Shown: piece by piece, positions 1 to 35,456 of the stretch
How the letters are laid out: every line of letters starts with the position of its first letter
Numbering within the stretch: position 1 is the first letter of the stretch
Assembly: GCA_015075425.1 (NCBI GenBank)
Contig: JABTUL010000003.1
Coordinates: 312,501-348,857 of the forward strand
DNA length: 36,357 bases
Reading direction: 5' to 3'
Origin: Spirochaetales bacterium
GTDB taxonomy: Bacteria > Spirochaetota > Leptospiria > Leptospirales > Leptonemataceae
Translations under genes and position numbers: made by a program
The notes under the pieces: model-generated
What the model was told of the DNA's origin: nothing
Seen by the model: only the letters and a program-made list of their open reading frames with translations
The model's database searches: none

Positions 1-192
1 TTTTGAAAAACACGAACTCAAAACAAAGAAGCGGCTCGATTTTATTTGCTTCAGAAAGGTTCTGCAAATGATGCAAAGAAATGAGCATCTGGAAGAAGCA
101 GGGCTGGAAAGAATCAGAAGAATCAAAGCACGCATGAATAGAGGTCGAATAAGATAGAGTCCGGCTGATTTAGAAATGGATCAGACGAACCG
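1..192 (+). mobile_element. 3' end of a group I intron inserted in 23S rRNA (site L1931)
   Basis: The rRNA exon resumes at base 193 with AGCGAAATTCCTTGTCGG, which is universal 23S sequence. The conserved exon that should precede it (ending GGTCCTAAGGT) is absent. In its place is an endonuclease tail (stop at 155-157), about 35 non-coding bases and a final G at 192. By E. coli numbering (m5U1939 lies in GAAAUU) the junction falls after U1931, a site where group I introns are known in Thermotoga and Simkania. Only the 3' end is in the window, so the intron class is inferred from the endonuclease type, the site and the terminal G, not from a visible catalytic core. Confidence 0.8.
2..157 (+). 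CDS. LAGLIDADG homing endonuclease, C-terminal fragment (starts off-window)
   Basis: An open frame runs from base 2 to a TAG at 155-157 and gives 51 residues, open at the left edge. It contains KTKKRLDF, then a basic helix, then EEAGLERIRRIKARMNRGR. This matches the C-terminal signature of I-CreI-type LAGLIDADG endonucleases (KTKKRLDF, then EGLxxIRxIKxxMNRGR). Such enzymes cut intronless rRNA genes at the insertion site and so promote spread of the intron. The gene sits inside the intron and ends 35 bases before the 3' splice site, a usual arrangement. The catalytic LAGLIDADG helix would lie upstream of the window. It is too short and too truncated to say whether the enzyme is intact. Confidence 0.8.
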   Translation, partial: FEKHELKTKKRLDFICFRKVLQMMQRNEHLEEAGLERIRRIKARMNRGRIR

Positions 193-33530: not shown

Positions 33531-33975
33531 GTGTGCCCGGCATGGGCGATGACTAAAGGGTGAGAGTCCCGAACAGGGGAGGTTGAACCCCCTGATAGCC
33601 AAGAGCAAGGGTGTCCATCGTGAGGTGGAATCTGAAGGAAGCTGGAGGCAAACTCCTGGCCTGACGCACAGGAACCTGATGAGGCCGTTAGTCTGGATGA
33701 GGCTGCCCGTGAAGCTGAAGTCCGTTCAACCAAAGGGCGAGGCGGTAGATCAGGCAGGTAGACGGGAGGAAAGTCATCACCCTTACCCGGGGAGATCTGT
33801 AGGAACGTCGGCGGAGGGTCCGCGTGCGGAGGAAACCGACAACCATCATCATGAGATGATGCTGATCTTACAGAAGTCAGCAGAGGTCATAGTGTCCCAC
33901 AAAAGGGTGCGGCTGGAAGGCGACTCGGGGGAACGAAGGACCGAACATTAGTTTTGAGGAGAAACCTGTAGAATC
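33531..33975 (+). ncRNA. Group II intron ribozyme, 5' domains (I-III region)
   Basis: This non-coding stretch before the reverse-transcriptase frame is GC-rich with many local hairpins (for example AGGGGAGGTTGAACCCCCT near 33574 and CATCATCATGAGATGATG near 33845). No gene is seen in it. Together with domains V-VI at 35371-35443 it forms the intron RNA. Confidence 0.75.
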
Positions 33976-35373
33976 ATGATCATGCAAGGACAGCTGGAAT
34001 TTCCATTTGCGGGAGGGCCGGACTCAAACGAAGGGGTGAAGCCCCGACCGCGAGCCGGTAGCGGAGCATGACACGGCTGAAGCAGGCATAGACCTCACGA
34101 ACGGTAAGGAAAATCTCTCGGATCAATTGCTTGATCCGGGAAATACTGCAGAGGCCTGCAAGAAGGTCAAATCGAATAGAGGCGCAGCTGGAGTCGATGG
34201 TATCACGACCGGAGCTCTGGATGAATTCATGACGGAGCACTGGTTGGGTATCGCCGATCGTATTCGCTCGAACAGCTACCGGCCACAGCCGGTGCGACGG
34301 GTGGAAATACCCAAGGCCGATGGCAGCAAACGTTTGCTCGGATACCAACGGTAATTGACCGTGTAATCCAGCAGGCTCTGCTGCAAATCCTGACGCCGAT
34401 CTTCGACCCATTCTCGAGTCGAGCTATGGATTTCGTCCGGGACGGAGCGCACATGATGCGTTCGTGCTGCTCGGAACTCATGGAAGAAGGCTACTACATC
34501 GTGGTTGACATCGATCTGGAGAAATTCTTCGATCGAGTCAATCATGACATACTCATGTCGCGCGTGGCCCGAAAGATAGCGGACAAGACAATCCTGCGAT
34601 TGATCCGTCGCTATCTTGACTCAGGTGTCATGCTGAACGGAGTGTGTGTGGCTACGGAAGAAGGTGTCCCGCAGGGTGGCCCACTCAGCCCCCTTCTGGC
34701 GAACATTCTTCTGGATGACCTCGACAAGGAGCTGGAGAAACGCGGGCACAAGTTCTGTCGCTATGCAGACGACTGCAACATCTACGTGAAGGGCCGTCGA
34801 TCGGGAGAAAGGGTATTCGAAAGCATCGTGCGCTTTCTGAGTAAGAGGCTCAGACTTACGGTGAATGAAGAAAAGAGTGCTGTGGACCGTCCATCAGCCC
34901 GGAAGTTTCTGGGCTTCAGTTTTCTGCGGACTGGCTTCGGGGTGAAGATCTGCATATCCCGGCAATCCATAAAGAAACTTAAAGACAAAATCCGCGAGCA
35001 CACCAGGGTTCGAAGGGGGAACATCACCCTCGAAGAAAGAATCAAGGTGCTCAGGCGATATCTGGTTGGATGGATGGGCTACTATGCACTCACGGACGAT
35101 CCTTCCATTCTTGGCAACATCACATCGTGGATGCGCCGACGAATGCGAATGGTAGTCTGGAACCAGTGGAAGAAGCCAATTGCCCGCTTCAGAGGCTTTC
35201 GGCGCTTCGGGCTGACCGCACGGGAAGCCCGGATGGCCGCCTACAACAGTCGGGGCAAATGGTGGAACTCCCGGATCAAACTGGCTCACATAGCCCTGGG
35301 AAACCAGTTCTGGAAGCGCTCCGGCCTACCGGACCTCTCTTTGCTTCACTTATCCGTTCGGCAAAGCTGGTGA
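33976..35373 (+). pseudogene. Group II intron reverse transcriptase/maturase (LtrA-like), frameshifted
   Basis: The probable start is ATG 33976 (MIMQGQLEFPFAGG). RT domain pieces are KSNRGAAGVDGI, SYRPQPVRRVEIPKADGSKR, (G)IPTVIDRVIQQALL, ELMEEGYYIVVDIDLEKFFD, EGVPQGGPLSPLLANILLDD and the catalytic FCRYADDCNIYV. The maturase domain (RRYLVGWMGYYAL, WNQWKKPIARFRGFRRFGL) runs to TGA at 35373. There is no endonuclease domain, as in class IIC. The main frame from 34426 is open for 315 codons. Upstream, four single G bases appear missing between 34337 and 34473, and the N-terminus needs a further frame change. Inactive as read. Confidence 0.88.
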
Positions 35374-35456
35374 ACCGCCGTATACGCGACCCGTACGTAC
35401 GGTGGTGTGAGAGGGCGGCGGGGAAACCCGCCCCCTACTCGATGGAGGCCGACGCT

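Follow-up and report, generated by a model that had tools for sequence, protein, structure and literature searches.

The window, i.e., the whole stretch of 36,357 nucleotides that was analysed, comprises bases 312501 to 348857 of contig 3 (348857 bases) in the 4.13 Mb draft genome of a Spirochaetales bacterium, so that its left boundary was set by cutting and the contig continues beyond it. It opens with the 3' end of a group I intron (positions 1 to 192), which is followed by the 3' exon of the 23S rRNA gene (193 to 1159). This exon extends from A1932 to the 3' end of the rRNA and is recognised by the Rfam model RF02541 with 1062 bits. All features described here lie on the plus strand. The exon starts at position 193 with AGCGAAAT, and the last base of the intron is the terminal guanosine G192, directly after which the 3' splice site is located. 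Base 193 corresponds to A1932, and T200 to U1939, in E. coli 23S numbering. As the exon begins with A1932, the intron ends at G192 and is inserted after U1931, which corresponds to site L1931. The boundary between U1931 and A1932 that characterises the L1931 family is exact on its 3' side at 192/193 by 23S homology, in agreement with an earlier note on this DNA, which had placed the exon restart right after the U1931 equivalent. In relatives, the intron is preceded by GGT in the 5' exon, with 93 relatives bounded on both sides among the matches listed. A match upstream of the intron to the related genome G015 was sought in order to obtain the intron length from synteny, and none was found.

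Several structural elements of a group I intron can be recognised in the window, namely the S element with the P7 3' strand, P9.0 together with P9, and the terminal G. The S element AAGATAGAGTCC, consisting of the P7 3' strand and flanking core bases, occupies positions 151 to 162 and was aligned to the general group I model RF00028 near its 3' end, as well as to the conserved AAGATAAAGTCC of relatives. The 5' strand of P9.0 (GG, 163 to 164) pairs with its 3' strand (CC, 190 to 191), and this helix shows two-base covariation. Across 105 distinct tails, P9.0 is paired in 77% of two-base positions, while 2000 shuffles averaged 42% and never exceeded 52%. Between the two strands lies the P9 hairpin (165 to 184) with 8 bp, a GAAA loop and a fold z of -3.35. 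In 26 relatives, all seven consensus pairs of P9 (7/7) display two-sided changes, and the covariation score was reached by none of 500 shuffles.

A covariance model was made from the 3' tails of these 26 related introns, with the window excluded. It matched positions 151 to 192 at 36.5 bits (E=3.7e-8), the runner-up in the 36 kb window having an E of 1.2. This match and the same junction in relatives uphold the central proposal of the earlier note, a group I intron at L1931. The Rfam check that the note had advised gave a mixed outcome. RF00028 scored the 3' fragment in the window at 14.4 bits (E 0.3), which is below the cut-off, and yielded no match on the draft genome sequence without the intron core. 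In the relatives, full-length matches to RF00028 above the cut-off were obtained in seven of the ten scanned. In six of those (L022, L028, L030, L044, L050, and L062) the match is the L1931 intron, and in L036 it lies elsewhere in its own 23S. Since RF00028 alone is weak on the fragment, the identification combines the match of the family-specific model with a comparison to relatives that are complete. The latter contain the P3–P8 catalytic core with the P, Q, and R elements, and by analogy with them we infer the P1–P8 core of the intron, its 5' splice site, and the LAGLIDADG motif of its endonuclease.

Overlapping the S element at its end, an open reading frame encodes the C-terminus of a LAGLIDADG_1 homing endonuclease (2 to 157), comprising 51 codons and a stop, and remains open in frame up to the TAG at 155 to 157. 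The earlier note had described an I-CreI-like LAGLIDADG C-terminus upstream of the junction, of which the enzyme family was confirmed and the subtype was not. In phmmer searches, the fragment matched endonucleases of the I-OnuI and I-SmaMI types at about 1e-15 (best E 2.4e-15) and PDB entry 5gkk at 3.2e-10. I-CreI chains were absent from its PDB matches up to E 10, and a direct BLASTP comparison of the fragment with I-CreI returned no alignment at E 100. The similarity to LAGLIDADG_1 (PF00961) lies in the C-terminal part of the family. A Pfam search of the 51-residue fragment alone gave no match; the full-length proteins of three relatives match Pfam LAGLIDADG_1 at 1e-26 to 1e-28. One relative, L062, shares 35 of 51 residues with the fragment, and its full-length protein matches 5gkk at 3.7e-56. 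The endonucleases of the relatives carry one motif, of the type WVVGFVDGEG, and therefore probably work as homodimers. Differences at the first, second, and third codon positions number 15/11/22 relative to L102, 17/13/28 relative to L062, and 15/13/25 relative to L044. This third-position excess resembles that of a gene under selection. A protein search of 30 genomes of the same order detected the window alone, all remaining matches being weak (E 0.07 or worse).

The last codon (AGA) and the stop codon (TAG) of the endonuclease are located inside the S element. Among the matches listed, 28 of 56 relatives have the stop at the same base of the S element, which indicates that bases of the ribozyme core double as the final codon and the stop. 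This placement ties the end of the protein to the catalytic core. Overlap of some intron ORFs with core sequence has been described in a review (PMC3984707).

The distribution of the intron was analysed by a pattern scan for the S element, the tail, the G, and the exon in a collection with one genome per bacterial or archaeal species. The same junction, including the terminal G demanded by the pattern, was found in at least 115 contigs. Carriers among the matches listed belong to Chloroflexota, Pseudomonadota, Planctomycetota, Cyanobacteriota, Chlamydiota, Acidobacteriota, many CPR groups, and others. Both exons and the whole intron are readable in 93 of the listed matches. A homologous endonuclease ORF is present in 56 of these 93 and absent from the other 37, which mostly measure 193–290 nt. 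L1931 introns are thus common across bacterial phyla, and they had already been published for Simkania, Thermotoga, and Synechococcus (PMC1995217), as had 23S introns at position 1931 for CPR bacteria (PMC11270868). The rarity assumed in the earlier note does not hold.

The assembly contains one 23S place only. An intact, intron-free U1931–A1932 junction was sought in the genome and none was found, which sets the count of intron-free 23S copies in the assembly, proposed earlier as a check, at zero. As the assembly offers no alternative 23S gene, splicing should be required for every ribosome, although the draft genome could lack a second, intron-free copy. Close relatives (G015, G003, G004, G005, G012, G024, and G001) have an uninterrupted L1931 site.

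Taken together, these results are best explained by a homing group I intron that carries a LAGLIDADG_1 gene and interrupts the 23S gene after U1931; this reading is assigned a probability of about 0.95. The insertion site, the anatomy of the 3' splice site, the covariation of P9 and P9.0 in relatives, the endonuclease C-terminus, the single assembled 23S copy, and the empty sites in close relatives were all observed here. The P1–P8 core, splicing, dimerisation, DNA cleavage, and horizontal arrival would follow from the relatives and from established biochemistry. Members of this intron family typically splice by two transesterifications and home by cleaving the empty site. In the precursor rRNA, the intron would fold into the ribozyme core, and a guanosine cofactor would cleave at the 5' splice site. 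The upstream exon would then attack with its 3' end after G192, joining the 23S rRNA and releasing the intron. P9.0 and P9 are expected to bring the terminal G into the active site. The LAGLIDADG_1 protein, probably as a homodimer, would cut the intron-free 23S site, whereupon the intron could be copied into empty genes.

A degenerate remnant is an unlikely alternative, in which the 3' end survives and splicing or the endonuclease is dead, e.g., in a pseudogene copy of the 23S gene. It draws on the fact that the intron is known here from its last 192 bases and the endonuclease from its C-terminal 51 codons. The reading frame is nevertheless intact up to the conserved stop and shows the third-position excess, and P9, P9.0, and the terminal G are all intact. 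Moreover, as this is the only assembled 23S gene and its 3' exon retains the full RF02541 score, the gene must work.

Even less probable is an assembly error or a contaminating contig, by which the intron-bearing 23S gene would be foreign to this spirochaete. The genome is a draft with 1.97% contamination, and another draft genome, G017, has a foreign-looking contig with an intron-bearing 23S gene. However, the 23S exon in the window is 91% identical to that of G015 and 88–90% identical to those of other family members, compared with 84% or less for the 23S of other phyla, which assigns the contig to this spirochaete. The contig is also 349 kb long, and the junction is internal and not at a contig end.

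An archaeal-type bulge-helix-bulge intron or a 23S intervening sequence (IVS), which results in fragmented rRNA, would likewise interrupt an rRNA gene, and IVSs are known in the 23S of Leptospira. In Coxiella, a 23S IVS is found in helix 45 (PMC4990558). This last explanation is refuted by the covariance-model match to 151–192 and has a negligible probability. The insertion site is a different one, RF00028 recognises relatives at L1931, and the S element, P9.0, P9, and the terminal G are characteristic of group I introns.

Downstream of the 23S gene, neither a 5S rRNA nor a tRNA was found within 35 kb on the 3' side (window 1160 to 36357). In spirochaetes such as Leptospira, the rRNA genes are unlinked. 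A short 23S and an unlinked 16S in G015 were also considered and dropped as an artefact of N bases in the G015 sequence. Separately, a group II intron is located near the end of the window (33614 to 35443), with Rfam matches for domains D1–D4 (33614 to 33941) and domain V (35373 to 35443). Its reverse-transcriptase/maturase ORF (34426 to 35373) starts at position 64 of the RVT_1 profile, so that a truncation or frameshift may affect the beginning of the maturase.

Among 393 genomes of the phylum, a strict pattern search retrieved the genome of the window as the sole match. Because the pattern is strict, this is an undercount, and three further genomes were found by other searches. G117 and G093 came to light in a Pfam search through their LAGLIDADG_1 genes, and the L1931 tail is altered in both; an Rfam search added G017. 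G093, which belongs to another spirochaete family, carries an L1931 intron (L155, G093:C181) with a 208-residue frame of a different, CPR-like LAGLIDADG_1 subfamily. Its 23S exon is closest to spirochaete 23S and 84.6% identical to that of the window. The G093 bin has 8% contamination, and the intron contig opens with a sequencing adapter of the Nextera type. G017, a draft genome from the same family as the window, has an L1931 intron of 523 nt without an endonuclease (L146, G017:C16), matched by RF00028 at 75 bits. The 23S gene bearing it is just 78% identical to that of the window, and the contig is probably a contaminant. The same probably applies to the intron contig of G117 (L154 and L156, G117:C425), which has two LAGLIDADG_1 genes and a 23S that bears an L1931 tail; the exon of this 23S is unlike spirochaete 23S. 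No published rRNA group I intron of a spirochaete was found in the open-access papers searched, as the earlier note had supposed for well-studied cases.

In a tree of the endonucleases (96 columns), the copy in the window pairs with a cyanobacterial copy from Symploca (support 98/89), and a Simkaniaceae copy stands next to these two (support 80/68). Given a short alignment, of whose 96 columns the window occupies only about half, the tree suggests horizontal spread of the intron and does not establish the donor. It is about as likely as not that spirochaetes gained L1931 introns on two or more occasions from separate subfamilies, as represented by the copies in the window and in G093. If they did, rRNA group I introns would be on record for the first time in the phylum Spirochaetota. 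They would also clearly exemplify how long-distance homing can recur in an rRNA gene that is essential and apparently present as a single copy.

The intron in the window belongs to a known, widely distributed family, of which it is an unremarkable representative, and its novelty is limited to the poorly sampled host. It extends this family of mobile rRNA introns to a spirochaete. With one assembled 23S gene, ribosome production would hinge wholly on splicing. In addition, primers or 23S surveys spanning L1931 would miss or misread such organisms.

I-CreI comes from a 23S intron of an organelle, at site L2593. It shares with the present system the LAGLIDADG family and the location in a 23S intron, but differs in its site, and no similarity between its sequence and the fragment was detected. 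In I-OnuI and I-SmaMI, a single chain contains two repeats, whereas the L1931 family has one motif. PDB 5gkk, annotated as a "putative homing endonuclease" (170 aa), is similar to both L062 and the fragment in the window. The CPR 23S introns at 1931 (PMC11270868) have the site and the LAGLIDADG_1 family in common with the intron described here, although, among the matches listed, many CPR-type copies differ in being about 200–290 nt long without an endonuclease or in having a different tail. The introns of Simkania negevensis, Thermotoga spp., and Synechococcus share the L1931 insertion site; they measure 654–700 nt and contain a single-motif LAGLIDADG gene (PMC1995217). Compared with these, the host is a spirochaete, and the copy is known from its last 192 bases. 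The collected relatives exhibit a 3'-end anatomy like that in the window; they include Simkaniaceae bacterium L106 and cyanobacterium L102, which are its nearest neighbours in the endonuclease tree.
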